Source: Cylicocyclus nassatus
Taxonomy: Eukaryota; Nematoda; Chromadorea; Rhabditida; Strongylidae
Assembly: GCA_958299035.1 (NCBI GenBank)
Contig: CATQJL010000316.1
Location: forward strand, 14,292,347-14,356,346
DNA length: 64,000 nt
Direction of reading: 5' to 3'
The notes under the pieces were generated by a model, which had not been told where the DNA came from, made no database searches, and saw only the letters and a program-made list of their open reading frames with translations. Position 1 is the first letter of the stretch. Each line of letters begins with the position of its first letter. The position numbers and the translations under genes were made by a program. Below are positions 6,601-56,755 of this stretch, piece by piece.

Positions 6601-9600
6601 ACAATTTTTCGAACTTTTATTTGAACCCTCCGTAAAAGTTCAAGGAACGTTTTTATAGGACAAACCCTACAGAATGCAAAACAATTTTTCTCTCCTTTTC
6701 ACGCTTGTCATACTTCTTTTAACAGTTTAGCTGATGCTGCCGATTTCCATACTTGAGCAGCTAAATCCTCGTAGAACACCAAAGGAAGAGCAGCTCGGGC
6801 ACTATTCGATGCACATCTTCTCCTCTTTCTATGGGTGTTTTTTGTTTCCGATTTTTTCAGTTTTGGGGGATTAAATCATCACAAGTATTTTTTTCAAAAA
6901 GTCCCAGGCTGTATCCGATCGGTTTGATATTTCGAATCCGTAAACTCTCATTTGCTTTGTGAATTTAGTGCTAACTCGTAACCATCTTGGTTGTCTCAAA
7001 TTCTGAATAATTAGGATGTTTGATGCTGTGGCTGATGTAGGCCTGCCAAAATCCAATGGTTTTGTTAAAAAATCTTCTAAAAATTACTGCGAGCTACGAA
7101 AAGGAGAAGAAAGATATACTGTATTCCAAGGTTTGCTCTATCGAATCGTAACTTGAGCTCCTTCTGAGGATTGATATAAAAGTTTCAAAAGATTTTAAAA
7201 CTTGACCGTTTCAAAAAACATGTGTCGCAGATTTTAGTAATTTTTCGAAAGCTCATTGAGAGCGCTGCAAAGATTTCATTATTGTTAGAAAGAAGATGCA
7301 ATGCTGTATCGAATGCTAGCAAAATCTCTCAGAAATCTTCCATCACATGTGGCGTCCGTTTGAAAAAGCGAAATTACTTTCGGAGTGACCTAACATAATA
7401 TTACATCGTCCCAAAAAAATGTCGCAACATGCCACCATTTCTAGATGAGCAAAAAAGTAATTTATCGATTTACCATTTGCTAGAGCAAAGCAAGCTCTAC
7501 AAGAAGAAATCTAAACATCTGTTGAAATTTTGTCGCAAGCAAACCTTGCAAAATTTGAAAAATTCCTGAATAATCGAAAAGTCGCACGTCGCGTTTTTTA
7601 GTTTGTGCCTAATTAGTTATCTCCCGAAAACTACCGATTTAGAAAGCTAAAAGTTCATAATTATACTTTTTACTTCCGGTATTCATACTACAACTTCACT
7701 TAACAGGGAAAAGAGTAGAAATGCTTAAATTTATGCCAGATGTCGTTCTTGATTTCTGGCCACGAAAAACCAAGGAACTACGTTAATGAGCGCCTGATGT
7801 AGAGATTGTAGCGTGTGCAAAAGATTTCCCTTAAGAAATCTTTTGTAAAGATACGATTTCTCCCTGTTTTCGGGAATTTAGAGTCTTCCAAAGACTTGCT
7901 TCAAATGTAAGTCTTCATTAATGCGAAATGATTCAAACTCATGTAAAGCTGTGCCTTACAATTTTCCTTTTTTCGTGTTTACCCTGCCACAATGTTGCGT
8001 GAAAACAGATAATGTGGCTTCCTGATTTTTTGCGAAACACCTCAAATGAATGTTTTATCTTTCTACTCAATGCTTATGCATCTAGCCAACACAATTTTCG
8101 AACTATTTCCGCTAAATGAATGATGAGGATACACGCTAAAAACTAAGCTTACCCTCTAAACAAATCATTATTCATTTAGCAGGAAAGCATAATAGCCAAG
8201 TTCCTGGCTTTGGGTAGAGAATTTCAGAGTTGATTAAAATTCGCATGATCTTCTTTGTGCTAAACTCATAGTTCACCCAAATTCCTGTAAGATTGAACAC
8301 ACCTCTTTCCCTTTTCCTACAATGCTTACGACGGACTCAACGTTTAGCACATGCTGTTAAAAGTTAATGACTAAACAAAAAATAAGTGCTTTACCTACTA
8401 CAAAAAGTACGAAAAGTCTCAATGTCTATATAGAATTCGGTAGGATTGCTAATTTTTCCAAGGCCTAGCAAACTTGAACGACAACAGGTTTTGTTTGGAG
8501 AGCTGCTGTCACCTTCCAAATGTTTCAGAGCAATTCAACCGCTTTAATGATATAACATGAGGGCATAGAACAAATTCTACTTAATGTAAGAGAAAAGAAT
8601 TTGTTGAAGGAAGCTCAGATGCCCTAAACATTGAAACACAATAATATCTGCTGCATGACGAAGGCGGTTGCCCAAATAGGTTGAAGGCTGTTGCGCACGC
8701 GGCGCGCGGGCAATTGTCAGCTACGGGGCGCGCGCACGCTCCGCTGACCGAGCGTGCGCGCGCCCGGTGGTTGACAATTGTCCGCGCGCCGCGTGCGCGA
8801 CAGCCTTCAACCTAGTTGGGCAACCGCCTTCGTCATGCAGCAGATATCAAAAAATATTACCAAGTTCTATCCAAGTTTTTGAACATTACAGGGGAAAAGG
8901 AAGATACTACTACGTCAGCACCAACCACCACACAAAGAACTAGAAAAACAGTCGCAACAACAATAGCCGATACAACCGTGTCGACGGAAAGCGCCGAAAC
9001 AGATGTCAGCACTGAGAAACCACCAGTAACTGGATCAACGCAGGGCGCCGAAACACACGTTAGCACTGGCGAACCAACAGTAACTGGATCAACGCAGGGC
9101 GCCGAAACACACGTTAGCACTGGCGAACCAACAGTAACTGGATCAACGCAGGGCGCCGAAACACACGTTAGCACTGGCGAACCAACAGTAACTGGATCAA
9201 CGCAGGGCGCCGAAACACACGTTAGCACTGGCGAACCAACAGTAACTGGATCAACGCAGGGCGCCGAAACACACGTTAGCACTGGCGAACCAACAGTAAC
9301 TGGATCAACGCAGGGCGCCGAAACACACGTTAGCACTGGCGAACCAACAGTAACTGGATCAACGCAGGGCGCCGAAACACACGTTAGCACTGGCGAACCA
9401 ACAGTAACTGGATCAACGCAGGGCGCCGAAACACACGTTAGCACTGGCGAACCAACAGTAACTGGATCAACGCAGGGCGCCGAAACACACGTTAGCACTG
9501 GCGAACCAACAGTAACTGGATCAACGCAGGGCGCCGAAACACACGTTAGCACTGGCGAACCAACAGTAACTGGATCAACGCAGGGCGCCGAAACACACGT

Positions 9601-12600
9601 TAGCACTGGCGAACCAACAGTAACTGGATCAACGCAGGGCGCCGAAACACACGTTAGCACTGGCGAACCAACAGTAACTGGATCAACGCAGGGCGCCGAA
9701 ACACACGTTAGCACTGGCGAACCAACAGTAACTGGATCAACGCAGGGCGCCGAAACACACGTTAGCACTGGCGAACCAACAGTAACTGGATCAACGCAGG
9801 GCGCCGAAACACACGTTAGCACTGGCGAACCAACAGTAACTGGATCAACGCAGGGCGCCGAAACACACGTTAGCACTGGCGAACCAACAGTAACTGGATC
9901 AACGCAGGGCGCCGAAACACACGTTAGCACTGGCGAACCAACAGTAACTGGATCAACACAGGGCGCCGAAACACACGTTAGCACTGGCGAACCAACTGTA
10001 ACTGGATCAACACAGGGCGCCGAAACACACGTTAGCACTGGCGAACCAACAGTAACTGGATCAACACAGGGCGCCGAAACACACGTTAGCACTGGCGAAC
10101 CAACTGTAACTGGATCAACACAGGGCGCCGAAACACACGTTAGCACTGGCGAACCAACTGTAACTGGATCAACACAGGGCGCCGAAACACACGTTAGCAC
10201 TGGCGAACCAACAGTAACTGGATCAACGCAGGGCGCCGAAACACACGTTAGCACTGGCGAACCAACAGTAACTGGATCAACGCAGGGCGCCGAAACACAC
10301 GTTAGCACTGGCGAACCAACCGTAACTGGATCAACGCAGGGCGCCGAAACACACGTTAGCACTGGCGAACCAACCGTAACTGGATCAACGCAGGGCGCCG
10401 AAACACACGTTAGCACTGGCGAACCAACAGTAACTGGATCAACGCAGGGCGCCGAAACACACGTTAGCACTGGCGAACCAACAGTAACTGGATCAACGCA
10501 GGGCGCCGAAACACACGTTAGCACTGGCGAACCAACAGTAACTGGATCAACGCAGGGCGCCGAAACACACGTTAGCACTGGCGAACCAACAGTAACTGGA
10601 TCAACGCAGGGCGCCGAAACACACGTTAGCACTGGCGAACCAACAGTAACTGGATCAACGCAGGGCGCCGAAACACACGTTAGCACTGGTGAACCAACAG
10701 TAACTGGATCAACGCAGGGCGCCGAAACACACGTTAGCACTGGCGAACCAACAGTAACTGGATCAACGCAGGGCGCCGAAACACACGTTAGCACTGGCGA
10801 ACCAACAGTAACTGGATCAACGCAGGGCGCCGAAACACACGTTAGCACTGGCGAACCAACAGTAACTGGATCAACGCAGGGCGCCGAAACACACGTTAGC
10901 ACTGGCGAACCAACAGTAACTGGATCAACGCAGGGCGCCGAAACACACGTTAGCACTGGCGAACCAACAGTAACTGGATCAACGCAGGGCGCCGAAACAC
11001 ACGTTAGCACTGGCGAACCAACAGTAACTGGATCAACGCAGGGCGCCGAAACACACGTTAGCACTGGCGAACCAACAGTAACTGGATCAACGCAGGGCGC
11101 CGAAACACACGTTAGCACTGGCGAACCAACAGTAACTGGATCAACGCAGGGCGCCGAAACACACGTTAGCACTGGCGAACCAACAGTAACTGGATCAACG
11201 CAGGGCGCCGAAACACACGTTAGCACTGGCGAACCAACAGTAACTGGATCAACGCAGGGCGCCGAAACACACGTTAGCACTGGCGAACCAACAGTAACTG
11301 GATCAACGCAGGGCGCCGAAACACACGTTAGCACTGGCGAACCAACAGTAACTGGATCAACGCAGGGCGCCGAAACACACGTTAGCACTGGCGAACCAAC
11401 AGTAACTGGATCAACGCAGGGCGCCGAAACACACGTTAGCACTGGCGAACCAACAGTAACTGGATCAACGCAGGGCGCCGAAACACACGTTAGCACTGGC
11501 GAACCAACAGTAACTGGATCAACGCAGGGCGCCGAAACACACGTTAGCACTGGCGAACCAACAGTAACTGGATCAACGCAGGGCGCCGAAACACACGTTA
11601 GCACTGGCGAACCAACAGTAACTGGATCAACGCAGGGCGCCGAAACACACGTTAGCACTGGCGAACCAACAGTAACTGGATCAACACAGGGCGCCGAAAC
11701 ACACGTTAGCACTGGCGAACCAACTGTAACTGGATCAACACAGGGCGCCGAAACACACGTTAGCACTGGCGAACCAACAGTAACTGGATCAACACAGGGC
11801 GCCGAAACACACGTTAGCACTGGCGAACCAACTGTAACTGGATCAACACAGGGCGCCGAAACACACGTTAGCACTGGCGAACCAACTGTAACTGGATCAA
11901 CACAGGGCGCCGAAACACACGTTAGCACTGGCGAACCAACAGTAACTGGATCAACGCAGGGCGCCGAAACACACGTTAGCACTGGCGAACCAACAGTAAC
12001 TGGATCAACGCAGGGCGCCGAAACACACGTTAGCACTGGCGAACCAACCGTAACTGGATCAACGCAGGGCGCCGAAACACACGTTAGCACTGGCGAACCA
12101 ACCGTAACTGGATCAACGCAGGGCGCCGAAACACACGTTAGCACTGGCGAACCAACAGTAACTGGATCAACGCAGGGCGCCGAAACACACGTTAGCACTG
12201 GCGAACCAACAGTAACTGGATCAACGCAGGGCGCCGAAACACACGTTAGCACTGGCGAACCAACAGTAACTGGATCAACGCAGGGCGCCGAAACACACGT
12301 TAGCACTGGCGAACCAACAGTAACTGGATCAACGCAGGGCGCCGAAACACACGTTAGCACTGGCGAACCAACAGTAACTGGATCAACGCAGGGCGCCGAA
12401 ACACACGTTAGCACTGGTGAACCAACAGTAACTGGATCAACGCAGGGCGCCGAAACACACGTTAGCACTGGCGAACCAACAGTAACTGGATCAACGCAGG
12501 GCGCCGAAACACACGTTAGCACTGGCGAACCAACAGTAACTGGATCAACGCAGGGCGCCGAAACACACGTTAGCACTGGCGAACCAACAGTAACTGGATC

Positions 12601-15600
12601 AACGCAGGGCGCCGAAACACACGTTAGCACTGGCGAACCAACAGTAACTGGATCAACGCAGGGCGCCGAAACACACGTTAGCACTGGCGAACCAACAGTA
12701 ACTGGATCAACGCAGGGCGCCGAAACACACGTTAGCACTGGCGAACCAACAGTAACTGGATCAACGCAGGGCGCCGAAACACACGTTAGCACTGGCGAAC
12801 CAACAGTAACTGGATCAACGCAGGGCGCCGAAACACACGTTAGCACTGGCGAACCAACAGTAACTGGATCAACGCAGGGCGCCGAAACACACGTTAGCAC
12901 TGGCGAACCAACAGTAACTGGATCAACGCAGGGCGCCGAAACACACGTTAGCACTGGCGAACCAACAGTAACTGGATCAACGCAGGGCGCCGAAACACAC
13001 GTTAGCACTGGCGAACCAACAGTAACTGGATCAACGCAGGGCGCCGAAACACACGTTAGCACTGGCGAACCAACAGTAACTGGATCAACGCAGGGCGCCG
13101 AAACACACGTTAGCACTGGCGAACCAACAGTAACTGGATCAACGCAGGGCGCCGAAACACACGTTAGCACTGGCGAACCAACAGTAACTGGATCAACGCA
13201 GGGCGCCGAAACACACGTTAGCACTGGCGAACCAACAGTAACTGGATCAACGCAGGGCGCCGAAACACACGTTAGCACTGGCGAACCAACAGTAACTGGA
13301 TCAACGCAGGGCGCCGAAACACACGTTAGCACTGGCGAACCAACAGTAACTGGATCAACGCAGGGCGCCGAAACACACGTTAGCACTGGCGAACCAACAG
13401 TAACTGGATCAACGCAGGGCGCCGAAACACACGTTAGCACTGGCGAACCAACAGTAACTGGATCAACGCAGGGCGCCGAAACACACGTTAGCACTGGCGA
13501 ACCAACAGTAACTGGATCAACACAGGGCGCCGAAACACACGTTAGCACTGGCGAACCAACAGTAACTGGATCAACACAGGGCGCCGAAACACACGTTAGC
13601 ACTGGCGAACCAACTGTAACTGGATCAACACAGGGCGCCGAAACACACGTTAGCACTGGCGAACCAACAGTAACTGGATCAACACAGGGCGCCGAAACAC
13701 ACGTTAGCACTGGCGAACCAACAGTAACTGGATCAACGCAGGGCGCCGAAACACACGTTAGCACTGGCGAACCAACAGTAACTGGATCAACGCAGGGCGC
13801 CGAAACACACGTTAGCACTGGCGAACCAACAGTAACTGGATCAACGCAGGGCGCCGAAACACACGTTAGCACTGGCGAACCAACAGTAACTGGATCAACG
13901 CAGGGCGCCGAAACACACGTTAGCACTGGCGAACCAACAGTAACTGGATCAACGCAGGGCGCCGAAACACACGTTAGCACTGGCGAACCAACCGTAACTG
14001 GATCAACGCAGGGCGCCGAAACACACGTTAGCACTGGCGAACCAACAGTAACTGGATCAACGCAGGGCGCCGAAACACACGTTAGCACTGGCGAACCAAC
14101 AGTAACTGGATCAACGCAGGGCGCCGAAACACACGTTAGCACTGGCGAACCAACAGTAACTGGATCAACGCAGGGCGCCGAAACACACGTTAGCACTGGC
14201 GAACCAACAGTAACTGGATCAACGCAGGGCGCCGAAACACACGTTAGCACTGGCGAACCAACAGTAACTGGATCAACGCAGGGCGCCGAAACACACGTTA
14301 GCACTGGCGAACCAACAGTAACTGGATCAACGCAGGGCGCCGAAACACACGTTAGCACTGGCGAACCAACAGTAACTGGATCAACGCAGGGCGCCGAAAC
14401 ACACGTTAGCACTGGCGAACCAACAGTAACTGGATCAACGCAGGGCGCCGAAACACACGTTAGCACTGGCGAACCAACAGTAACTGGATCAACGCAGGGC
14501 GCCGAAACACACGTTAGCACTGGCGAACCAACAGTAACTGGATCAACGCAGGGCGCCGAAACACACGTTAGCACTGGCGAACCAACAGTAACTGGATCAA
14601 CGCAGGGCGCCGAAACACACGTTAGCACTGGCGAACCAACAGTAACTGGATCAACGCAGGGCGCCGAAACACACGTTAGCACTGGCGAACCAACAGTAAC
14701 TGGATCAACGCAGGGCGCCGAAACACACGTTAGCACTGGCGAACCAACAGTAACTGGATCAACGCAGGGCGCCGAAACACACGTTAACACTGGCGAACCA
14801 ACTGTAACTGGATCAACGCAGGGCGCCGAAACACACGTTAGCACTGGCGAACCAACAGTAACTGGATCAACGCAGGGGGCCGAAACACACGTTAGCACTG
14901 GCGAACCAGCAGTAACTGGATCAACGCAGGGCGCCGAAACACACGTTAGCACTGGCGAACCAACAGTAACTGGATCAACGCAGGGCGCCGAAACACACGT
15001 TAGCACCCTCGAACCAGCAGTAACTGGATCAACGCAGGGCGCCGAAACACACGTTAGCACTGGCGAACCAACAGTAACTGGATCAACGCAGGGCGCCGAA
15101 ACACACGTTAGCACCCTCGAACCAACAGTAACTGGATCAACGCAGGGCGCCGAAACACACCTTAGCACTGGCGAACCAACAGTATCTGGATCAACGCCGG
15201 CCGCCGAAACACACGTTAGCACTGGCGAACCAACAGTAACTGGATCAACGCAGGGCGCCGAAACACACGTTAGCACTGGCGAAACAACAGTAACTGGATC
15301 AACGCAGGGCGCCGAAACACACGTTAGCACTGGCGAACCAACAGTAACTGGATCAACGCAGGGCGCCGAAACACACGTTAGCACTGGCGAACCAACAGTA
15401 ACTGGATCAACGCAGGGCGCCGAAACACACGTTAGCACTGGCGAACCAACAGTAACTGGATCAACGCAGGGCGCCGAAACACACATTAGCACTGGCGAAC
15501 CAACAGTAACTGGATCAACGCAGGGCGCCGAAACACACGTTAGCACTGGCGAACCAACAGTAACTGGATCAACGCAGGGCGCCGAAACACACGTTAGCAC

Positions 15601-15826
15601 TGGCGAACCAACAGTAACTGGATCAACGCAGGGGGCCGAAACACACGTTAGCACTGGCGAACCAACAGTAACTGGATCAACGCCGGCCGCCGAAACACAC
15701 GTTAGCACTGGCGAACCAACAGTAACTGGATCAACGCAGGGCGCCGAAACACACGTTAGCACTGGCGAACCAACAGTAACTACATCAACTGAATGCACCA
15801 CGACCACATCCGATGGAAAATGTTAG
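3603..15826 (+). CDS. Giant mucin-like membrane protein, multi-exon (5' end not found)
   Basis: I do not recognise an orthologue. Exons inferred from splice signals: 3603-3688, 3767-3877, 4367-4494, 4707-4891, 5085-5168, 5307-5344, 5447-5540, 5651-5877, 8892-15826. Every junction keeps the reading frame. Most introns have GT..TTTCAG or TTTTAG ends; the donor at 5345 (TTAA|GTCCAC) is weak. The second exon encodes one hydrophobic span (GLFLFVVIFGSALSVILTVAL) after a short polar N-terminus and before a lysine-rich stretch, which suggests a type II signal anchor with the rest outside the cell. About 320 further residues follow, including a Cys-rich piece (CNFTY..NFCFSTCG). Then comes a Thr/Ser-rich stem and 125 copies of the 18-residue unit GSTQGAETHVSTGEPTVT, ending TSDGKC and a stop. 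About 39% of the unit is Ser or Thr, typical of O-glycosylated mucins. The start codon and any upstream exon are missing. The function, perhaps surface coat or cuticle lining, is inference. Confidence 0.7.
4186..4353. mobile_element. Small MITE in a mucin-gene intron
   Basis: The left end (ACCCTATGATTCAACTGGCT then GCTGGAAGGCGGTGCTTTGTG) matches the reverse complement of the right end, so this is a terminal inverted repeat element of about 170 bp. A second copy lies at 41195-41339. It ends about 14 bp before the splice acceptor at 4366, leaving only the TTTTGTTTTAG tract between the MITE and the exon. Confidence 0.7.
5878..8891 (+). other. Long intron of the mucin gene
   Basis: This interval lies between the exon ending at 5877 (phase 1) and the giant exon starting at 8892, whose first two bases complete the split codon. 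It contains no convincing exon. Visible structures are an inverted repeat of 'cgctaaatgaatgatga' type near 8108-8182 and fragments near 7125 and 7485 resembling the arms of the mariner-type palindrome at 55128. A 204-bp GC-rich palindrome lies at its 3' end. An additional exon here cannot be excluded. Confidence 0.5.
8644..8847. repeat. 204-bp near-perfect GC-rich palindrome
   Basis: The left arm begins ATATCTGCTGCATGACGAAG and the right arm ends with its reverse complement. The arms are about 96 bp with a loop of roughly 10 bp around 8742-8751. The inner arms are dominated by GCGCGC and GTGCGCG steps, in sharp contrast to the AT-rich surroundings. No clear target duplication is seen. It ends 44 bp before the splice acceptor of the giant mucin exon. 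It is probably a MITE, and could form a cruciform or an RNA hairpin. Confidence 0.85.
9032..15781 (+). repeat. 125 tandem copies of a 54-bp coding minisatellite
   Basis: From the first GGA codon at 9032 to 15781 is 6750 bp, exactly 125 x 54. The unit encodes GSTQGAETHVSTGEPTVT and stays in frame throughout. The interior copies are nearly identical, differing mainly at silent sites (ACG/ACA, ACA/ACT/ACC before GTA, GGC/GGT). The last 1 kb is more diverged and includes amino-acid changes (a Leu-Glu-Pro variant at 15007 and 15115, Pro-Ala-Ala at 15195 and 15681). Homogeneous centre and diverged edges are what unequal exchange produces. A 32-unit (1728-bp) block is duplicated within the array. 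Confidence 0.97.
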
Positions 15827-20669: not shown

Positions 20670-20784
20670 ACTCTATTAAGTTAAATACTCTACGATATGT
20701 CTTCTTAAGCTTAACATCAAAAGTATGGTAATGTGTATGAAGAGCGAGGAAGTGTGATGGAAGAAGATGGAGGGAACCTTTTTT

Positions 20785-21124
20785 TGGTAAGACCAATTGG
20801 GTGGCACAACTATTTATTGGTGAATAGACGAACAGCGACTAGGCGATAACGGCGATAGTGACGACTCCAGAGCTTGGTATCCAGGCTCTTTTATACAGCC
20901 AAATTGGGCGTGTATAGCCTGGATGCCAACTTCTGGCAAGGAATGCTATCAATGCAGAAGAGTTTCGCCTACTTGAAAGTAGGCGCCGCCGAGTGCATTA
21001 TCAAGGGCCATGAGGGTGACCCGGCGGCTAAACAGGTGCATGGACAATCTACAACTTGTCCATGACAGAATGGATACATTTACATAAACGAAGAGAGTCG
21101 TTAATAATATTATAATTAACGACA
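20785..21124 (-). repeat. BEL-1 3' LTR
   Basis: On the coding strand it begins TGTCGTTAATT and ends GGTCTTACCA, with the TG..CA ends usual for LTRs. It has a TATAAAA box (20889-20895) and AATAAA (20813-20818). The first 28 bases on the coding strand form a near-perfect hairpin. It matches the 31094 copy base for base. Confidence 0.95.
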
Positions 21125-21407: not shown

Positions 21408-22121
21408 CTACTGTGCAGGATTGGCATGAATGAAGTGGCATCTTTTGCAGATGCCCTTTTTCTTGTACACCTTGCGTACATGATCGGGTGGCATATGTTT
21501 CTTGGCACGGCATCGTGACGCAGGATGCCCCGCGACATAGCAAACATCACAATAGCGTGGGGTTTCCACGGGAGGACATCCATTGGGGGGTGCTGGTATC
21601 ATTGGAATTGGACGCTGCTTCTCCTCGACGATCTCGATTTTATTAGCCATTCCGTCCATCTGCTGGGTCAAAACGCGGAGCTTGTCCTCGATCCTGTTTA
21701 GGCGGTGCTCATTGCTCTTCTGATTGTCTTGTATGACATGGAACATGTCCATCACATCTTTGTTAGAGACGTAGCCCCGATGCTCTTGTGATAGCACTAA
21801 GGGACGCAGTGTCATCTTGGGTTTTGGGACGATCGCCGCACTTCTATCTGGAATGAGAACAGTTTCGAGCTTGGTAATTTTTACCTGGGGCTCTCCATTC
21901 TCTTCCTGGTTCATGGTAGGATTCGGGGATGTGGTTTTAGCTCTTCTCTTCTTCGGGGTGGATGCCAGACGTCTTGCGTTTTTGGACGGTCGTGGCTTCT
22001 TCACGATGATCGGCCTCGAGCTTGGGGAAGTCGTTTTGTGAGCAGCAAGCTGATCCATTTCCATGCCAATTGATAAGTCCAAAAGGTCCTCTTCATCAGA
22101 AACGTGGATTGGAGTAGCCAT
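21408..22121 (-). CDS. Extra BEL-1 ORF after env: coiled-coil, CCHC zinc-knuckle protein
   Basis: This is an intact ORF of about 237 residues from the ATG at 22121; an in-frame ATG at 22154 would add 11. I do not know a family for it. The N-terminus is acidic (SDEEDLLDLS). A Lys/Arg-rich stretch follows (VKKPRPSKNARR, PKKRRAK) that could be a nuclear localisation or nucleic-acid-binding segment. A middle segment of about 60 residues has heptad-like spacing (RLNRIEDKLRVLTQQMDGM). The C-terminus has a canonical CX2CX4HX4C zinc knuckle (CDVCYVAGHPASRC) and a second Cys pair (CKRC) just before the stop. It lies 262 bp after the end of env and 284 bp before the 3' LTR, on the element's coding strand. 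It could be a regulatory or RNA-binding accessory protein, or a duplicated gag-like nucleocapsid; both are inference. Confidence 0.7.
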   Translation of the reverse strand: MATPIHVSDEEDLLDLSIGMEMDQLAAHKTTSPSSRPIIVKKPRPSKNARRLASTPKKRRAKTTSPNPTMNQEENGEPQVKITKLETVLIPDRSAAIVPKPKMTLRPLVLSQEHRGYVSNKDVMDMFHVIQDNQKSNEHRLNRIEDKLRVLTQQMDGMANKIEIVEEKQRPIPMIPAPPNGCPPVETPRYCDVCYVAGHPASRCRAKKHMPPDHVRKVYKKKGICKRCHFIHANPAQ

Positions 22122-22382
22122 AGTTGTTGTGAGCAGTAGAAGTTGGGTGTGCATGGAAGTGATGCCTTTTTATACGAAGATGTGGTTCGACCTAGGCATC
22201 GTAAATTTGCCGGCGAGGTCTTTGGAGTGGTTCGACATTCTTTCTGGCAAAATGTCGCGGGACAGAATAATTGCTTTGTGCATCACCGCCTGTAATTAGG
22301 GGGACTGCCAAGCAGTGACGCCTGGGGGGGACTAGCGAGAGTGCAGATATGTACATGTGAGTGTGCTGCATAATGTTATGTC

Positions 22383-24649
22383 CTAGAAGGGCATACATTT
22401 GCGAAACAGAGCAGGTCCACAGATCAGTGTGGCAGCTATTGACAATGCTACTACAGCTGCTGCTGTAAGCGAAGTGGTCCACCAGTGAGACATAACCTGA
22501 GCTATGTTGCTAAGGTCAGGAATGTTGATTAAGTCCACGTAATTGGCTTTTTCGATGTTAGCATGTTCCAAATCGTCTTTCCATATGGAGTGGTAATAAA
22601 GCGATCCGATGATGTGCAAATCATGTTTTTGTGATCCGCACTGGGTGCTACATTGTGCAGCATAGTTGGCGGTATTGGAACTGATCAGTACGGTGGTATT
22701 AGTTGCTTTTGGTCCGCAATCTATCGTGTAGTGATGATCAGTGCATTCAACTTCCGCGATTGTCCTGATTTTGGAAGTGCATGTGAAGACCAGCTTTGCT
22801 CCTTGGAGACAGTTGTAGCAGCCTTTCGCTTCGGAGGCGTGGATCTCGCATTTGGTGGGTATGATAACCGTAGCAGTTTTCCATCTGGCTTCAGTTGATA
22901 AGGAAACTTCTGCGACAGAGGTGTGCTCACAACTGTTACTGAGTTCTCGTCGGCTTCCAGAGAAAACTCTGAGTTATGCATGGGTAGCCTAGTATCCAGG
23001 GAGTCCATCCTTTCTGTGATGTTGACATTGGCACAATAGCATACAGCGGCTGTGGATCTTGAGGTGCACTTGCACGTATCCACGACACGGCATTTTGTTA
23101 AATTTTGTGCGATCTCTGATGTGATACACTTGACTGCGAACGTGTCGTCGGACGGGGATATCATGGTCTCCGGGTTGGTACGGTTGTATACTTGGACGAA
23201 TTTCCTATCCAAGATGGATATTGTGGGAGCCGTAATGAAGTCGAGGGTGAAGTTCATCTTGTCCATGCTCACTGTTTCTTGCGGTAATATGTCCATGTTT
23301 GTCACCACTTCCTTGCCCGTAACGAAGGTTAATCGAGCTCGTATTCGTGTTATTGTATTTTTCATTCCACACAGGACAGGAAAAGACTTTGTAGATGAGG
23401 TCGTCCTTCGGTTTTGAGTAAGTGCGGGAAAAAAGACAACCTGGCATTGGTAAGAGGCACCCACAACCAATTCCTCCACACGATTCTTGGCATCGTGTCA
23501 CTCCAGGAAGGTGGTATGAGCCATTTAATTCCGGAACGAACGAGTTTTGTGCGATTGTGCGACATCTTTGTTGCGTACAACTGCCGGCTTGAGCGCATCG
23601 TTTGGAAGAAACCGTTGTCAGCTCAGCGTTCCTGGTGAAGAAGTGAGTGACAGGTATGCACTCAAATCTAATGCTGTCGAGTTGTATGTGTAATGTCGCG
23701 ATCAGTTCTCCTTTGTACATTATCTTCATGCAGACTTCGCGTTTGAAGCTGCTCATTGCGAAGGTATGCTCCTCAATACTCTTACATCTCGAATCTCCAA
23801 GAAAGTCAGTGCAGATCAGATCTTTGGTGTTGAGAACATGAGTATGCTGACAGCAGCTTGTTACTGCCAGTAGTGAAAGCGAGAAGATGAGCTTGGATCG
23901 CGTCGAATGACCTCCGGAAGTTTTCCTTTGACGTGCTTGCGTTTCGATATTCGGACGCAATTCGACATTTTCGGCTTGCTCTGTTGTCGTAGAATCCATC
24001 GTTCTATGCTTCGAGTCTTTGAGCAAACGGCATTTTTGTTTGAGCATGACTGCTACACGTGCCACCAGATATGTGGAGATGGTGGTGAGTAGTGTAATGA
24101 TGTAAATAACCGTAGCTATAACTGCGATGGTTGTTTTCGGAAAACAGCGTGGGTTGCCAAGTAGAAGGGGACAGAAGGTGCAATGTATGGAATTGCACAC
24201 TGATTGCTCTGGGCACATCACTTCCTCTTCGTATAGTGTGGTGTTCATGATAGCTCGCCATTTAACGGAATATGGGTTAGTTAGCTGATGTGGCGGTAAA
24301 TATCTTTGTATGGGCTGCTGATCCGTGTGTATGCTCCGGCAATGAATGCGATTGACGCATACTTCACTCCTGCTGTTTAGGTCCGGAATCGATGATAAGT
24401 TGAGTATGACTCCATATTTGTGCAGTTCAGTACTTCTCCCTGTGCAGAATGTACCAATGTGCATGCTGTTAGGGCTAATAAAATGCTGAGTGCATTCCAT
24501 GGACGACGTTTCGGCAATACCACATTTTCGTTGTAATTGATGGGTTTCTTAGCCTTCCTTTCCAGAGGTTTGCGTTGCGGTAGAGCTTGTATGCTGCTCT
24601 GAGGTTCCTCATTGTCGTGTAAAGTGCTTGTCGTTGTGTTCGGATCCAT
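22383..24649 (-). pseudogene. env: BEL-1 envelope-like glycoprotein gene, broken into four frame segments
   Basis: Glycoprotein of the phlebovirus Gn/Gc type found in Tas-like BEL elements. In infectious relatives such proteins mediate membrane fusion. It is split over overlapping frames: 24649-24377, 24500-23205, 23479-22721, and a last piece ending at 22383. The apparent single-base frame breaks lie near 24440, 23355-23370 and 22880, the last two at short A/T runs. Visible landmarks are a signal-like hydrophobic stretch near 24520-24580, an internal transmembrane segment followed by basic residues near 24030-24120, a second signal-like stretch near 23850-23890, and many paired cysteines including a CGGIGCGC cluster near 23470. 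A C-terminal membrane span lies near 22400-22470. As assembled it cannot give one protein. The breaks may be real decay, assembly indels or, less likely, introns. Confidence 0.8.
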
Positions 24650-30224: not shown

Positions 30225-31018
30225 AAGAGGGTCGTCTGCTAACTGTGGATTGACCGAGCAGCTAGTTAGACCTCTTTACTAAGCTGTGGATTGGACCTAA
30301 CAGCTTAGTAAGGTGACTCTTGTACGTGAAAGTGGATGAATCAGCAATCACAGAGTCTTTTTTGGCTATAGGAAGCCAAAAAAAATTCGAGGAGTTCTTT
30401 TACTAACTGTGGATGAACCAGTCAGCTAGTTAGAACCCTCTGCTAAGCTATGGATAGGACCTGATAGCTTAGCGAGTTGACTCTTTATGTGGAAGTGGAT
30501 GGACCAGCAATCACAGAGTCTTTTTTGGCTGTTGAAAGCCAAAAAAAGTTCGAGGAGTTCTTTTACTAACTGTGGATGAACCAGTCAGCTAGTTAGAACA
30601 CCTCTCTAAGCTATGGATAGGACCTGATAGCTTAGTGAGTTGACTCTTGTATGTGAAAGTGGATGGACCAGCAATCACAGAGTCTTTTTTGGCTGTTGGA
30701 AGCCAAAAAAAAGTTCGAGGAGTTCTTTTACTAACTGTGGATGAACCAGTCAGCTAGTTAGAAAACCTCTGCTAAGCTATGGGATAGCTTAGCAAGACTC
30801 GTATTAGTAAAAGTGGATAAACCAACAATTACTAGAGTCGAATATTGGCTAATTAGTAGCCTAGAGTGCGAGGAGTCTGTTGCTAACTGTGGATGAACCA
30901 GTCAGTTAGCTAGAAACCTCTACTAAGCTGTGGATAGGACCTGACAGCTTAGTAAGACTCTTGGTCGCGAAAGTGGATGAACCAGCAATCACGAGAGTCG
31001 AATAATCGGCTGTTAGTA
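30225..31018 (-). repeat. BEL-1 5' leader: about five tandem hairpin-bearing units
   Basis: Units of roughly 150-180 bp repeat about five times between the primer site and gag. On the coding strand each unit holds three small stem-loops whose inner part is alike: CTAACT..TGGTTCATCCA..AGTTAG, TAAGCTAT..GGTCCTATCC..ATAGCTTA, and GTGA..TGGTCCATCCA..TCAC. Three units also have a TTTTTTGGCT/AGCCAAAAAA stem. A further degenerate TAAGCTA stem lies at 30158-30182. No ORF is conserved. BEL-2 has about three equivalent units at 56285-56755. Confidence 0.88.
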
Positions 31019-31032
31019 GCCTGCCACGCGGG
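31019..31032 (-). promoter_or_regulatory. Second tRNA-Gly complement in the BEL-1 leader (anticodon arm)
   Basis: The plus strand reads GCCTGCCACGCGGG, identical to the anticodon arm of animal tRNA-Gly(GCC); the element RNA is therefore complementary to it over 14 nt. It lies 45 nt downstream of the primer site. The same 14-mer occurs in BEL-2 at 56264-56277. Confidence 0.75.
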
Positions 31033-31077
31033 ACTTTTATCGAATTTCGGTGAGCAGCACCGAAGAGACGATCCGTT

Positions 31078-31090
31078 GGCCGATGCACCA
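31078..31090 (-). promoter_or_regulatory. BEL-1 primer binding site, tRNA-Gly
   Basis: On the coding strand TGGTGCATCGGCC follows the 5' LTR after a 3-nt spacer (AAT). It is the exact complement of GGCCGATGCACCA, the 3' end of invertebrate tRNA-Gly(GCC) including CCA. It marks the point of minus-strand DNA priming. Confidence 0.9.
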
Positions 31091-31093
31091 ATT

Positions 31094-31433
31094 TGGTAAG
31101 ACCAATTGGGTGGCACAACTATTTATTGGTGAATAGACGAACAGCGACTAGGCGATAACGGCGATAGTGACGACTCCAGAGCTTGGTATCCAGGCTCTTT
31201 TATACAGCCAAATTGGGCGTGTATAGCCTGGATGCCAACTTCTGGCAAGGAATGCTATCAATGCAGAAGAGTTTCGCCTACTTGAAAGTAGGCGCCGCCG
31301 AGTGCATTATCAAGGGCCATGAGGGTGACCCGGCGGCTAAACAGGTGCATGGACAATCTACAACTTGTCCATGACAGAATGGATACATTTACATAAACGA
31401 AGAGAGTCGTTAATAATATTATAATTAACGACA
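31094..31433 (-). promoter_or_regulatory. BEL-1 5' LTR (promoter)
   Basis: It is identical to the 3' LTR. On the coding strand TATAAAA lies at 31204-31198 and AATAAA at 31127-31122. It drives transcription leftward on this map through gag-pol and env. Confidence 0.93.
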
Positions 31434-31938
31434 CTTTTGCTCACTATCTCTACATACCTACAGGCAGTTAGGAATAAAAAGGTTTTTTTGGGTTATGGGA
31501 GACCTAATGATTCCATTGAGTCTGATCTAATTTCTGAACCATTACTGGTGTAAAGGCTTCAGCTTCTCCGTATCTTCACAAAAAGCTAACTGGACTGTTA
31601 AGAGTGTATATTAATCAAATGGTGCATTGCATAAGCTTTTCAACGATTATCCCAAATCAGCTTTCAGCATTTAAACGTTTTTTCAAAATTGTGAAATTGA
31701 CTCCTATACAAATTTCTTTCACATTCATTGTTTTTGGTTCATTGCCTAGCCTTTTTGAAGTGCTCTCTTGTGATTTCTGACGAGATGTGGCAAGACCAGG
31801 GCCCGGCAGGAGTCCGTTTCTAGGATTTTTGGAAACGAGGTACAAGACTCCCGAAAATTTTGTGAAATTTCCTTTGGCCCTTGCTATACAAAGCAGTTAG
31901 CAACCACAACTAAGCGTTCCTGCACTATATATAAGCTA
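31434..31938. other. Spacer with a CAGGGCC hAT MITE fragment
   Basis: From 31797 the sequence CAGGGCCCGGCAGGAGTC matches the left end of the hAT MITE family at 17040 and 61911, and similarity fades by about 31885. No matching right end or 8-bp duplication was found, so this is a truncated copy. Nothing else is recognised. Confidence 0.6.
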
Positions 31939-42900: not shown

Positions 42901-45900
42901 CAGCTCCACAGCACTTCAAATCGCCATAATTTACCGGAGTTGTCACGATATCTTATTGCACGAAGAAGCTTAATGAGAAAACGATGTCTGTAAACTGAGG
43001 ATATACCCTATTTGATGTCCATTTTCATGAAAAAGTTTATGAAAAGAATGAAGACTTACCTTGATGTATAGAGAAGAAAACCGGTAATGTGTTGGGTTAG
43101 ATTCCGCATTCGAATGCAGAGATGCGTGTTTTGCACGACCTTGAATGAATACGGTAGAGATAAACGGTATAAAACACAAAATGATGTTCAAAAAGTTACC
43201 AGTGCTTGGCTCTGAGCAGCTTTCCCTAAGATGTAGATAACCATCGGCTCGTAGCCATCTCATAGCATTGAATAAGAACTCGATCACCTCGCGGTCCGAT
43301 AGATACATCATCAACCAGTTGGTGAATACCAGATCCACGCTGTAAAAACACAAATTCGTTGAGGAACAAAAAGAGGGTCCTATACCTCTTCTCTTCCATT
43401 TGTAAATGAACAGCATCACCAATTTGGTAGCTGATATTTCCAAGATGGGCGTTTCTCTCTTGATTTTTAGCGATGAAAGATTCAATGAAGTCGGTGGAAT
43501 GTACCCATCGGGCTGTCTCAGCGAGCACTGTTGTGAAGCGCCTATAATTTTACTAATTAATTATAATATAGCAAAGAGACCCCTTTATTGTGCGTGTGGA
43601 GACTTCTATAAAGAATTCCAGATGTACTGAGTCATTAAAAGTTTAGCTTGGAGAAACATTTCCATTCCACAGTGAACGGAAAGGTGGAATTGGGAAGGGG
43701 AGGGGAAAGAGGGGGGGGGGGAGGAAGAACAAGAAATCATCATGCCAAGACCTCCAAAATTTCTGTGCGAAACAGCGCTTCGAAAAAAATGTGTGGCAGA
43801 TTTTAACTAGGATTTATTAAATCTAAGATATCATTTTAATTACTAACAGAAAAACATTCACTCCCCCCCCCCCGTGAAGCATATATGTAGATACATAAGA
43901 TTAAAATTCCGCATCTATACGGCACAGGATGTAACTATGCATGCATGTGGGAGGAGCTCAGAATAAAGGGGCGGAGTCTGCCATTTTCCAGATTTTAGCC
44001 TTAAGGGTCGGGCATATGTACTTCACGCGATTTCAGTCGCGACGCGATTTGGTAATTTGCCATAACCCTTCGGATCCAACACTAGCAAACTGCACATGCA
44101 TAGTATGTGTAACTCACGTAGATTGATGAAATGCCCTATCTTCTGTACATTTAAAATGTGCCTACAATGAGTTACGGACGGTTGAATTATTGCCAAATCG
44201 CCTCGCAACTGAAATCGCGTGAAGTATGCCCGGTTCTTCAGCACTGATTGGTTAAGTTACTTTCGATTGTCATATGATATTATGCCAGTGCCAGGTTTGT
44301 ACGGTGGAATGTTTTATTGGCCTTACGTTTCGACAAAATCGTCTTCGTCGGAGGCCTGAAAGTAGATTGCAGTGTTATCTGTGGGACCAGACCGCCAAAC
44401 GCATGGGACAACGTCTGGCCCCAATCCTTGCGATTTGTTTCATGAGCAAGATCGAGGCACCAGTTCTTGCACGCTTGCCGTTGATGTACCGCCGTTACAT
44501 CGACGACTGCTGCGTTATAACATCGACGCAGTCCGAAATGGACGAATGCTTCCGAATCCTAAACCAGCAGTCGCGGTACATAACGTTTACAAGAGAAACC
44601 CCGAAAAACGGATGGCTTCCCTTTCTAAATACCCAGATAAATCTATCTGGTGACACCATTCGCATAAAATGGTACCGAAAGGAAAGTTCAAAGAATATAC
44701 TGCTACATGCCAATTCAGCGCACCCAATCACAATGAAACGAGCCGTTGTGCGCAATATGTATCGAACTGCTATAAGTGTATGCACAGGTGAGCAAGAACG
44801 ACTCGAGTCCGTAAGACTGGCTACACAAATTGCGCGTAGCAATGGTTACTTGCCACAACGTTTAAGCTGCGCTTCCAAGTTTGCGAACAGTAGCCACGCT
44901 CAGGATAACAAGGTGCCCTTGTGTATGCCTTTCATTTCCGATAAGTTCAGTGCAGCAATAAAAAAATGTATAAGGCGAGCACAACTGCAAAATGATATTA
45001 TGCTTGTGAACATTCCGAACGAGAACATCAAGAAGCAGTTGGTAAGGAACAGGCTCTATGACGCAGAATGTCTATCAGAGCAATGTATTGTCTGCCCATA
45101 CGGAAAAGTAGGTGATTGCGCGAAAGCGGGAGTAGTGTATGAATTGGAGTGCTTGAACTGCAAGGCGACATATATCGGAGAAACGGGTAGATTGCTGAAT
45201 GTTAGACTTAAGGAGCATCTGGCGGCAAAAAGACGAGCAAATGCAATGTCGCCGTTGGGAAGACACAGAATTGAAACGCACAACGGCGGTGAATTTGACG
45301 TTAAGTGCACTATTTTGTCATATGAGGCAGAGATTACAGTGAGGAAAACCGTTGAGGCAGCGTGGATTTCCCTTCGAAATCCTAGCTTGAACAACAAAAA
45401 TGAATGTGTATCAATAACAGCCGAACTTTTGCCTATCTTAACGATCTGTGAGCGATAGTCTGCACATATATAAGTGACGATCATAGGACAGCACTTAGTG
45501 TCGTCTGTCTCTTCGGTGCGACTAAGTACTGACTCTACTGACTCTCACTAACACCACGGTGGATAAAGGTGCGTCTTCTGGTCGACATGCCCCTGTATGT
45601 TGAGTTCAGAGCGTGGTCTAGACTCGGCAGTGCGGGGAGGCGTTTGGCGGTCTGGTCCCACAGATAACACTGCAATCTACTTTCAGGCCTCCGACGAAGA
45701 CGATTTTGTCGAAACGTAAGGCCAATAAAACATTCCACCGTACAAACCTGGCACTGGCATAATATCATATGACAACTAATAACATCAGTCCAAATGCCCA
45801 GGTTCAGAGAAGAGAGAACGTTTAACTTACTTTCGATTGTTTATCTGTACTGCATTCGCATGAAGCACATATTAGTTACATGTATTAGTGTTATGATGGT

Positions 45901-54897: not shown

Positions 54898-56183
54898 TGT
54901 CTGTTGATGATTTCTATATCATCAACCTAATCAATCTATTTTTCCACATCACCTATGGGATCCCCATAGGCTCATTTGTACGCTTCATTCTCGAGTATCT
55001 AATCACTCAAGAATGATTGGCACCTGTGCACCAGGAGTGTGGCCGAACGGCGGCAACTCCTTCTAAGCCATGTACCCCTTCTACGTTGTACTTTGCACCC
55101 GCGCAAGCTCCGCCTCGTATCCATGTATTAGGTTGTCCGGAAATTAATGCCCGTTTTGAATTTCAACGGCAATAAGTCACACACTTCTCATTTCTAAATA
55201 GGTTGCAAGGTACCATTCGATAGAGCAAAGCAAGCTCTACAAAATGGCCACATCGCTTTTGCAGCGGCTCTCATCCTTCTCGAGTTTCGAGCCAAAAACT
55301 AAAAAAACTAAGCAGCCTGAAAAATCGAAAAAAATCGTAACTTAATTCATAAAAATCCTACTAAAATTCTTACTTGCTCACGTAAACATTATCCACATAA
55401 GACATCTATATACGCCTTTGCCGTATTTTTCCCTCTTTAGAAATCAAGAAAACGGAAATTTTCATGCATTTGCCAAAATGATGCTGTGCCGTCCCCACAT
55501 AGGTAGTTGTATACCACAAACCTGTAGAAGTACAGACTTAAATTTTCAACTCTCTAAAAGCTCTGGTTCTCGAGAAATGCCAAATATAGCTTTCCCTAGT
55601 TAGGTGGTCCAAGCTAAAATTCAAATTTCTCGAGAATTAAAGCTTGTAGAGAGCTGAAAATTCAAGTCTGTACTTCTACAGGCTTGCGGTATACAACTAC
55701 CTTTGCGGGGACGGCACAGCAACACTTTGGCAAACGCATGAAAATTTTCGTTTTCTTAATTTTTAACAAAGGAAAAAACCGGCGAAGGCGTATATAGATG
55801 TATTATGTGGATAGTGTTTACGTGAGCAAGTAAGAATTTTTGTAGAATTTTTAGGAACTGGGATAAGATTTTTTTCGGTTTTTCGGGCTGCTGAGTCTTT
55901 CTAGTTTTCGGCTCGGAACTAGAGGTGGATGAGAGCTGCTGCAAAAGCGAGGTGGCCATTTTGTAGAGCTTGCTTTGCTCTATCGAATGGTACTTTGCAA
56001 CCCACTTAGAATTAAGAAATTTATGATTTACTGCGGATAAAATTCAAAACGGGCATTAATTTCCGGACAACCTAATATATAAGGAGCCCCCAACTGTATT
56101 ATGGACTCTTCTCGAATAATCTACGCCCGTGCGAATAAACTTATTCCACAACTCGTCTACCCCTAATCACTTGGTACCCTCCA
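54898..56183 (+). repeat. BEL-2 5' LTR, split by a 948-bp insertion
   Basis: It begins TGTCTGTTGATGAT and ends TACCCTCCA, three bases before the primer site. Without the insertion and duplicated TA it is 336 bp, close to the 340 bp of BEL-1. It contains TATATAA right after the insertion (56076-56082) and AATAAA at 56134-56139. The start has a perfect 9-bp stem (54903-54911 with 54918-54926), the counterpart of the hairpin at the BEL-1 LTR start. Confidence 0.82.
55128..56075. mobile_element. Mariner-type palindromic element inserted in the BEL-2 LTR
   Basis: Ends TTAGGTTGTCCGGAAATTAA (inverted at the right) are flanked by TA (55126-55127 and 56076-56077), as for mariner/Tc1. The entire 948 bp is an inverted repeat folding at about 55605. 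Both arms carry the start of the same short frame (MATSLLQ), on the plus strand at 55244 and on the minus strand at 55959. No mariner transposase is recognisable. Arm fragments recur near 7125, 7485 and 47600. Confidence 0.88.
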
Positions 56184-56186
56184 AAT

Positions 56187-56199
56187 TGGTGCATCGGCC
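56187..56199 (+). promoter_or_regulatory. BEL-2 primer binding site, tRNA-Gly
   Basis: TGGTGCATCGGCC follows the LTR end after the spacer AAT. It is identical to the BEL-1 site and complementary to the 3' end of tRNA-Gly(GCC). Confidence 0.9.
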
Positions 56200-56263
56200 A
56201 GTGATTCTCCTTGCAATTCCCCCGGCGATTCCTTCTAAGGACCCGGGAAATCAAGGCCTAAGA

Positions 56264-56277
56264 CCCGCGTGGCAGGC
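56264..56277 (+). promoter_or_regulatory. Second tRNA-Gly complement in the BEL-2 leader
   Basis: CCCGCGTGGCAGGC is the perfect complement of 14 nt of the tRNA-Gly(GCC) anticodon arm. It lies 64 nt after the primer site, in the same order and orientation as in BEL-1, although the sequence between differs. Confidence 0.75.
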
Positions 56278-56284
56278 TGTATAG

Positions 56285-56755
56285 CCAACTATTCGACTCT
56301 CGTGATTGCTGGTTCACCCACTTTCGCGACCAAGTCTTACTAAGCTGTCAGGTCCTATCCACAGCTTAGTAGAGGTTTCTAGCTGACTGACTGGTTCATC
56401 CACAGTTAGCGACAGACTCCTCGCACTCTCGGCTACTAATTAGCCAATATTTGACTCTAGTAATTGTTGGTTCATCCACCCTTACTTATACGAGTTTTGC
56501 TAAGCTATCAGGTCCTATCCGTAGCTTAGCAGAGGTTTTCTAACTAATTGACTGGTTCATCCACAGTTAGTAAAAGAACTTCTCGAAACTTTTTTAGCTT
56601 CCATTAGCCAAAAAAGACTCTGTGATTGCCGGTCCATCCACTTTCACAAACGAGTTTCACCTTGCAAAGCTATCAGGTCATATCCATAGCTTAAAGGAGA
56701 TTTTTAGCTGACTGACTGGTCCATCCACAGTTAGCAAAGAAATCTCAACTCTCCA
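56285..56755 (+). repeat. BEL-2 leader hairpin units
   Basis: About three units equivalent to the BEL-1 leader array, with stems TAAGCTG..CAGCTTA, TAAGCTA..TAGCTTA, CTAACT..AGTTAG and GTGATTGC..TTTCAC around GGTTCATCC or GGTCCTATCC. The stems differ from BEL-1 at several positions while pairing is kept. Confidence 0.82.

Follow-up and report, generated by a model that had tools for sequence, protein, structure and literature searches.

The genomic RNA of two BEL retrotransposons of the nematode Cylicocyclus nassatus, BEL-1 and BEL-2, and of the lineage to which they belong probably holds its primer, tRNA-Gly(GCC), by two separate duplexes, as judged from sequence comparison. One duplex would form at the primer-binding site (PBS) and the other at a complement of the tRNA anticodon arm that lies deeper in the leader. 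The way in which an LTR element selects a single host tRNA is understood only in part, and extra contacts between template and primer are clearest in HIV-1 and yeast. Here, the anticodon-arm complement is the most shared segment after the PBS, in a further major group of elements (BEL/Pao). Parallel solutions in other families of the same genome provide a natural experiment with many replicates, and the suggested source of such contacts is copying of the primer tRNA itself, likely products of which are present in the genome. The window is the whole stretch of 64,000 nucleotides analysed; it belongs to contig C316 of a 514.7-Mb assembly, to which all genome-wide counts refer.

Both elements carry a 13-nt PBS and, further into the leader, a 14-nt perfect complement of the anticodon arm of tRNA-Gly(GCC) (Table 1). 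The two segments are separated by 45 nt in BEL-1 and by a different spacer of 64 nt in BEL-2, and this pairing, first described in a sequence-only reading of the window, agrees in both elements with the coordinates and with the host tRNA genes. The 14-mer is found exactly in BEL-1 and BEL-2 only within the 64-kb window, and one other place resembles it with 3 mismatches. When 20000 first-order Markov sequences were generated for each leader composition, a tRNA complement of at least 14 nt arose in 2 for the BEL-1 leader and in 1 for the BEL-2 leader. The same reading had treated the 14-mer as an island whose retention in two elements was very unlikely by chance. This reasoning is flawed for BEL-1 and BEL-2, because their leaders are 87.6% identical from the 14-mer on (30562-31036 and 56260-56738, both stretches starting at the 14-mer) and its presence in both is not improbable by itself; the argument is better made across families.

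Table 1. Features of BEL-1 and BEL-2 in the window (positions count from the first letter of the window).
Feature	Positions	Strand	Remarks
BEL-1 PBS, 13 nt, complementary to the tRNA-Gly(GCC) 3' end	31078-31090	-	TGGTGCATCGGCC
BEL-1 anticodon-arm complement, 14 nt	31019-31032	-	CCCGCGTGGCAGGC; 12-nt core 31021-31032, opposite tRNA positions 32-43
BEL-1 spacer hairpin, between the two tRNA complements	31039-31072	-	fold MFE -11.8, z -2.0
BEL-1 leader array, type I, tandem units of about 163 nt	30239-30999	-	starts shortly past the 14-mer
BEL-1 5' LTR, 342 bp	31092-31433	-	boundaries read by eye
BEL-1 3' LTR	20783-21124	-	identical to 5' LTR (100% over the matched 344 nt)
BEL-1 target duplication, 5 bp (CTTTT)	31434-31438 and 20778-20782
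BEL-1 gag-pol open frame, 1762 aa	24925-30213	-	domain search in pieces
BEL-1 envelope region, overlapping frames	22383-24548	-	Phlebovirus_G2, E 7.6e-56
BEL-2 LTR end, of the lineage's TTGGTNNNNACCAAAT type but with TCCAAAT	56171-56186	+
BEL-2 PBS	56187-56199	+	TGGTGCATCGGCC
BEL-2 spacer hairpin	56209-56256	+	MFE -15.5, z -0.24, not significant alone; family covariation
BEL-2 anticodon-arm complement, 14 nt	56264-56277	+	CCCGCGTGGCAGGC; core 56264-56275
BEL-2 leader array, type I, units of about 160 nt	56295-56738	+
BEL-2 reverse transcriptase fragment, short surrounding frames	59546-60070	+

Two trivial explanations were considered and rejected. A chance match is contradicted by the Markov leaders (2 and 1 per 20000), by reversed-pattern controls of 0 and by the family controls described below (sense 0/32, reversed 1/32). 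An inserted tRNA gene or pseudogene is contradicted by ARAGORN, which reports no tRNA gene in the window, and by the flanks of the block, which are not tRNA sequence; the 14-mer is thus not part of an inserted tRNA-derived repeat, the case that the earlier reading had named as one that would refute its proposal.

The 14-mer complements an actual host tRNA, because the tRNA-Gly(GCC) genes at three loci (L109, L114, and L115) match both segments perfectly. Across families the conserved core is the 12-mer CCCGCGTGGCAG, whereas positions 13-14 of the 14-mer vary. This core, referred to here as the block, is the complement of tRNA positions 32-43 (gene positions 31-42; conversion counted by hand), which comprise all seven bases of the anticodon loop and the five that form the 3' strand of its stem. 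Pairing with tRNA position 44 would require a G before the CCC of the core, and this base is T or A in 38 of 38 copies, a set that includes 12 copies fetched by exact pattern, which are no evidence of conservation. Since a G never occurs there, perfect pairing ends where the anticodon stem ends. A tandem array of tRNA-Gly(GCC) genes begins at G000:C223:44840459, with a 191-bp unit repeated at least 27 times and five units confirmed by ARAGORN (L109); many of the 540 14-mer sites in the genome may belong to this array.

The LTR of BEL-1 ends 1 nt ahead of the 13-nt PBS, and its gag-pol frame encodes domains in BEL order, namely DUF1759, DUF1758 (a putative peptidase), RVT_1, Peptidase_A17, and Integrase_H2C2. 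An rve match lies below the curated cut-off (27.8 versus 32.6 bits), and no separate RNase H match was listed in the domain search of gag-pol. Downstream of the envelope region and before the 3' LTR lies an open frame of 253 aa (21408-22169) with no Pfam match. A protein search with a piece of the BEL-1 reverse transcriptase (RT) region placed nematode Pao elements on top, with the best match in Cylicocyclus nassatus at 92% and further protein relatives in the strongyles Oesophagostomum, Ancylostoma, Haemonchus, and Trichostrongylus. No relatives were found in the viral collections and contigs or in the prokaryote genome contigs searched. Tas elements have an env-like gene of the phlebovirus type. 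On its protein matches, BEL-1 has the domain order, tRNA-Gly PBS and phlebovirus-type envelope of a Tas-like BEL/Pao element (Belpaoviridae). BEL-2 is broken, and an RT fragment is its sole recognised coding part.

Conservation was followed through the lineage from two starting points. The exact 13-nt PBS occurs at 662 sites genome-wide, and a sample of 100, all from contig C1 and all read, was clustered; 24 of these fall into one lineage with BEL-1 and BEL-2. The 12-mer is present within one mismatch at 24 of 24 of these sites and is exact at 21. Genome-wide, pairs of PBS and CCCGCGTGGCAG with gaps of 30-91 number 140 (53 + 87), against 0 for reversed patterns. The second starting point was the LTR end TTGGTNNNNACCAAATTGG, picked independently of the 12-mer, which gave 270 sites genome-wide (control 0). 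Among 100 of these sites, 50 lie on C1, of which 42 were counted, 22 with the exact 13-nt PBS and 20 without it; the remaining 8 consist of 7 unread sites and L127, which was excluded because it had been fetched by exact pattern.

Of the 42 LTR-end copies, 37 carry an exact 12-mer and 40 one with no more than a single mismatch, while the full 13-nt PBS is intact in 22 copies, the first 10 nt of it in 36 and the first 8 nt in 40. No 12-mer downstream of the PBS is more widely shared than CCCGCGTGGCAG in these copies, and the block outlasts the 3' part of the PBS. In many copies the PBS is mismatched at the 11th base (TGGTGCATCGACC, TGGTGCATCGTCC) or contains an extra base, and the 12-mer is still present. 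A single mismatch in the 12-mer was seen in L044, L140, and L151, and the block is absent in 2 of 42 copies (L134 and L137). A degenerate Gly-type PBS starting TGGTGCA is found at 19 of the 20 sites that lack the exact 13-nt PBS, and 18 of these 19 keep the block (16 exactly, L140 and L151 with one mismatch). Relatives that had switched primer were sought among the same 20 of the 270 sites, and no recognisable PBS for another tRNA was present; L134 has lost the block, and L137, with neither a Gly-type PBS nor the block, is not recognisable as an element. The 12-mer persists across eight spacer variants and across two leader types that do not align, and it is unchanged though the BEL-1 RT is only 58% identical, as protein, to that of one E2 and one E3 copy. 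Within the lineage, the anticodon-arm complement is therefore conserved beyond its surroundings, as spacers and downstream leaders differ.

All eight spacer variants (A, B, C, D, and E0-E3) are predicted to fold as a hairpin, with z from -2.69 to -0.24, of which E0 (z -0.24) and C (z -1.44) are not unusually stable alone. In short-word BLAST, the spacers of D and E0-E3 show partial matches among themselves, while those of A, B, and C have no match in any other variant. When PBS, spacer and block are taken as one segment, A aligns with B at 77%, and an alignment of C with D and E is feasible. A helix of 10 pairs in the six sequences C, D, and E0-E3 has 98.3% of its cells paired and contains 3 compensatory pairs, a covariation equalled by 7 of 500 shuffles, and slid helices score worse. 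In co-folds with the tRNA, predicted binding weakens by 7.1 to 15.4 kcal/mol when the 14-mer region is blocked, in each of the 11 leaders tried, and blocking the PBS likewise lowers predicted binding in these leaders. The minimum-energy dimer of L142, which has an imperfect PBS, does not use the 12-mer, and leader folds predicted prior to tRNA binding can bury part of the block.

The arrangement that these observations suggest is as follows. The PBS, with 8-13 perfect nucleotides and sometimes 18, would pair with the 3' acceptor strand of the tRNA, and the segment of 12-14 nt deeper in the leader would pair with the whole anticodon loop and the 3' stem strand (tRNA 32-43). The spacer hairpin would fold away the intervening RNA and thereby bring the two duplexes near each other, their 3'-to-5' order matching that on the tRNA. 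The second duplex would add both specificity for the GCC isoacceptor and stability to a PBS that is short and often imperfect. The sequence-only reading had proposed that tRNA-Gly is selected or positioned by two duplexes, and the comparisons made here (24/24 and 40/42 copies, the hairpin covariation, and the complements in other families) support this proposal. We infer that the two RNAs form this duplex inside particles and that selection acts on the choice of primer or on initiation. A second primer-tRNA contact of the HIV-1 or Ty3 kind is the reading that the data from this one species best suggest.

Second complements were also sought in other families primed by tRNA-Gly. Single linkage on 150 nt of the LTR end separated the 100 C1 sites into 34 families, and dropping tRNA copies and duplicates (L026, L027, L040, L043, L052, L071, L072, and L104) left 92 sites in 32 families. 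A complement to tRNA nt 1-58 was scored as near the PBS if it lay within 100 nt upstream or within 100 nt after the first 18. With the BEL-1/BEL-2 lineage included, a complement of at least 9 nt occurs near the PBS at 52 of 92 sites (sense control 1, reversed 2) and in 18 of 32 families (sense 0, reversed 1), and one of at least 11 nt in 12 of 32 families (controls 0 and 0); 14 of the 32 families have no complement of at least 9 nt near the PBS. The figure of 18 is an upper bound on independent gains, because families were formed by single linkage and may include some whose LTR ends are homologous. At 9 nt, the family hits are concentrated between -100 and 0 (16), with 2 between 0 and +100 and 0 to 3, about the level of the controls, in farther bins. 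A test confined to U5 in the first members of all 34 families, tRNA copies kept, gave hits in 14 of 34 (sense 0, reversed 1; 500 shuffled tRNAs, mean 0.33 and maximum 4), and the span from -200 to +318 gave hits in 21 of 34 (sense 3, reversed 3; 100 shuffled tRNAs, mean 1.56 and maximum 7). Of the 22 hits in this span, 11 lie on gene positions 3-19 (the D-arm region) and 7 on 29-43 (the anticodon arm).

Outside the lineage, the 12-mer occurs within 318 nt downstream, with up to two mismatches, at 5 of 76 sites, and each of the five is a tRNA copy. Upstream, its first 11 bases, CCCGCGTGGCA, are found exactly within 200 nt at 13 of these 76 sites and at 16 with up to one mismatch; the exact sites are 7 of 9 members of the L021 family (-41 to -87), 5 of 5 of the L031 family (-167 to -180), and L028 (-31), and L046, L076, and L101 have one mismatch. 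In the L031 family (L031, L035, L036, L095, and L097) the exact segment lies far upstream in the LTR. Genome-wide, CGCGTGGCA occurs 5-35 nt before the PBS at 14 sites, 1 of them a tRNA copy (control 0), and CACTGAACCACC occurs 2-30 nt before the first 10 nt of the PBS at 26 sites, 2 of them tRNA copies as judged by eye (control 0). In L098, which was excluded from the counts, an anticodon complement of 8 nt lies 39 nt into the leader (shuffle P 0.03). The sequence-only reading had counted absence of the 14-mer from other BEL elements with this primer site against its proposal. Downstream, the 14-mer is indeed absent at the 76 sites apart from tRNA copies, but 18 of 32 families, the BEL-1/BEL-2 lineage among them, do have a second complement near the PBS.

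In these other families, the contact would be made upstream of the PBS, with the anticodon arm or the D-arm region, and to the same end. Where a D-arm complement is located 5-8 nt upstream of the PBS, reverse transcriptase would have to displace the duplex shortly after initiation, and the duplex may act as a block to synthesis, an initiation checkpoint like one discussed for HIV-1. On balance, we lean towards the broader view that two-site primer recognition is a general rule for the tRNA-Gly-primed BEL-type elements of this nematode. According to this view, a second complement, either to the anticodon loop and 3' stem or to the D-arm, would have been gained repeatedly, probably by RT copying, and then kept, with the anticodon contact of the BEL-1/BEL-2 lineage outlasting the 3' part of the PBS and the D-arm block serving as a checkpoint. 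A BEL-type gag (DUF1759) scored above the cut-off in 11 of 20 frames scanned, with one weaker match and 8 without any (20 of 22 family frames, leaving out L080 and L098), and because it was found in only part of these frames, not every tRNA-Gly-primed family is proven to be BEL/Pao.

The leaders of the lineage are modular. Families A, E0, E1, and E3 have the type I array and B, C, D, and E2 the type II array, and BLAST gives no alignment between the two types over the array. The type I array is predicted to form a chain of hairpins, several with the apical motif GGTYCATCC or GGTCCTATCC, and tandem arrays of units of about 160 nt are also present in type II leaders (L074, L116, L122, and L124). 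RT protein identities, which cover A, E2, E3, and the broken BEL-2, are 58% for A with one E2 or E3 copy, 87% for E2 with E3, and 44% over 244 aa for A with BEL-2; the pol stretch from PBS+3200 to +4500 has no match to the BEL-1 RT in one copy each of B, C, D, and E1. E2 and E3 thus differ in array type, whereas A and E3 share one at 88% DNA identity. Because array types disagree with RT identities in this way, leaders have been exchanged between families, with a junction at or near the 12-mer, and sharing of the block between the BEL-1 and BEL-2 families could partly reflect co-transfer with the array. The base before CCC is T in families A and B, as well as in the E3 copy L094, but A in C, D, and the majority of E copies; the T common to A and B, a single base, hints weakly at a junction at or after the block. 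Type II leaders L074, L116, L119, and L122 also contain an 8-10 nt complement of the D-arm (e.g., TACCACTGAA) about +150 to +163 from the PBS. This complement occurs in families B, C, and D, where the order is PBS, anticodon complement, and D-arm complement, and it is possible that it provides a third tRNA contact.

The complements probably originated from the primer itself. In L026, L040, L052, and L104 an LTR end common to other members of the family is followed by most or all of the tRNA-Gly complement, and shorter pieces follow in L027 and L043; L072 is also among the LTR ends fused to a nearly complete or partial tRNA-Gly complement. The continuation of L026 past the tRNA complement resembles RT coding sequence by eye, and L040 has the order LTR, tRNA complement, about 60 nt of LTR again, and a PBS-like site. 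Moreover, the five bases after the 13-nt PBS are AGTGA or GGGAA within one and the same family (L011 versus L124, L020 versus L119, and L045 versus L060), and GGGAA is the result expected from copying 18 nt of tRNA, which suggests that the PBS may be renewed from the primer only sometimes. From the fusions and this switching together, we infer that the reverse transcriptase at times copies the primer tRNA through the anticodon arm, probably a ready source of such segments.

Such capture is the likely origin of the block, and it may be asked whether it is also the whole explanation, RT having copied past its usual stop and left functionless scraps in leader and LTR. The fused copies and the alternation between AGTGA and the tRNA-templated GGGAA indicate that the process is real in this genome. 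Without a function, however, a scrap should decay along with its surroundings, and the 12-mer is instead the most shared segment, outlasting the 3' part of the PBS and persisting at 58% RT identity; scraps should also cover the tRNA more evenly, whereas 18 of 22 hits fall on two sites. As a full account, neutral capture is argued against by this conservation, and we consider it improbable.

The block might alternatively serve Gag binding or packaging, dimerization, translation, DNA-level control or recombination between modules, its match to the tRNA being incidental. It does sit at the junction of two exchangeable leader modules, contains the palindrome CGCG and is followed by a hairpin array. 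This explanation would nevertheless leave to coincidence, at about 1e-4 by chance per leader, an exact correspondence with positions 32-43 of the element's own primer, and anticodon-arm complements are also present upstream of the PBS in other families; its probability appears low, below that of a neutral relic. It is very improbable that the block is a target of small RNAs derived from tRNA-Gly (halves or fragments) or a site of half-tRNA priming as in copia or Ty5. Priming by the anticodon loop is known in Copia elements (PMC10886601), but the LTR ends here lie 1 nt before an ordinary PBS rather than at the 12-mer, and an element would not be expected to conserve a target for its own silencing.

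Two duplexes with the primer tRNA, the reading that we prefer, have counterparts in other systems. In HIV-1, a second contact outside the PBS is likewise made with the anticodon arm of the primer tRNA, and effects on primer choice, on the step from initiation to elongation and on RNA integrity have been reported, although the contact was undetected in some NMR studies (PMC7793103 and PMC13191261). The HIV-1 contact differs in lying upstream of the PBS and in using a short A-rich loop, whereas the putative contact of the BEL lineage extends over 12-14 nt, lies downstream beyond a hairpin and involves tRNA-Gly(GCC). Ty1 and Ty3 resemble the lineage in that their PBS is bipartite and further arms of the primer tRNA are contacted as well. 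For Ty3, these are the T and D arms of tRNA-iMet, and the second PBS part is found some 4800 nt off, close to the 3' end; for Ty1, a small internal loop lies between the PBS parts (PMC5371799). In the BEL lineage, by contrast, the predicted contact is with the anticodon arm, 43-65 nt beyond the PBS. Helenus TRIMs and Copia elements also have tRNA-related sequences, but in the form of a tRNA-like promoter in the LTR or of an anticodon loop that is used for priming and defines the PBS itself (PMC10886601), whereas the BEL lineage has an extra antisense segment beside an ordinary 3'-end PBS.

Tas-type elements of the Belpaoviridae share with BEL-1 the tRNA-Gly primer, gag-pol and an env-like gene; their primers are described as tRNA-Gly or tRNA-Arg and their PBS as 18 nt long, and PMC8742986 mentions no second tRNA contact. 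A survey of BEL/Pao elements (PMC3118150) uses none of the terms tRNA, PBS, and primer binding in its main text. The sequence-only reading knew of no earlier report for BEL/Pao, and none was found in the open-access literature, to which the search was confined.

Several other features of the window may be mentioned. A tandem repeat of 54 bp (8991-15789) comprises 126 copies that are 98% alike. Both of its strands are open, with frames of 2336 and 2321 aa, and no Pfam match was obtained with 1061 aa of the plus-strand frame. A near-palindrome of 958 bp (55123-56080), 86% identical to its own reverse complement, ends about 107 nt before the BEL-2 PBS and is possibly a foldback element. Finally, an open frame at 44256-45458 has a GIY-YIG match together with a below-cut-off RVT_1 match, and we take it to be Penelope-like.
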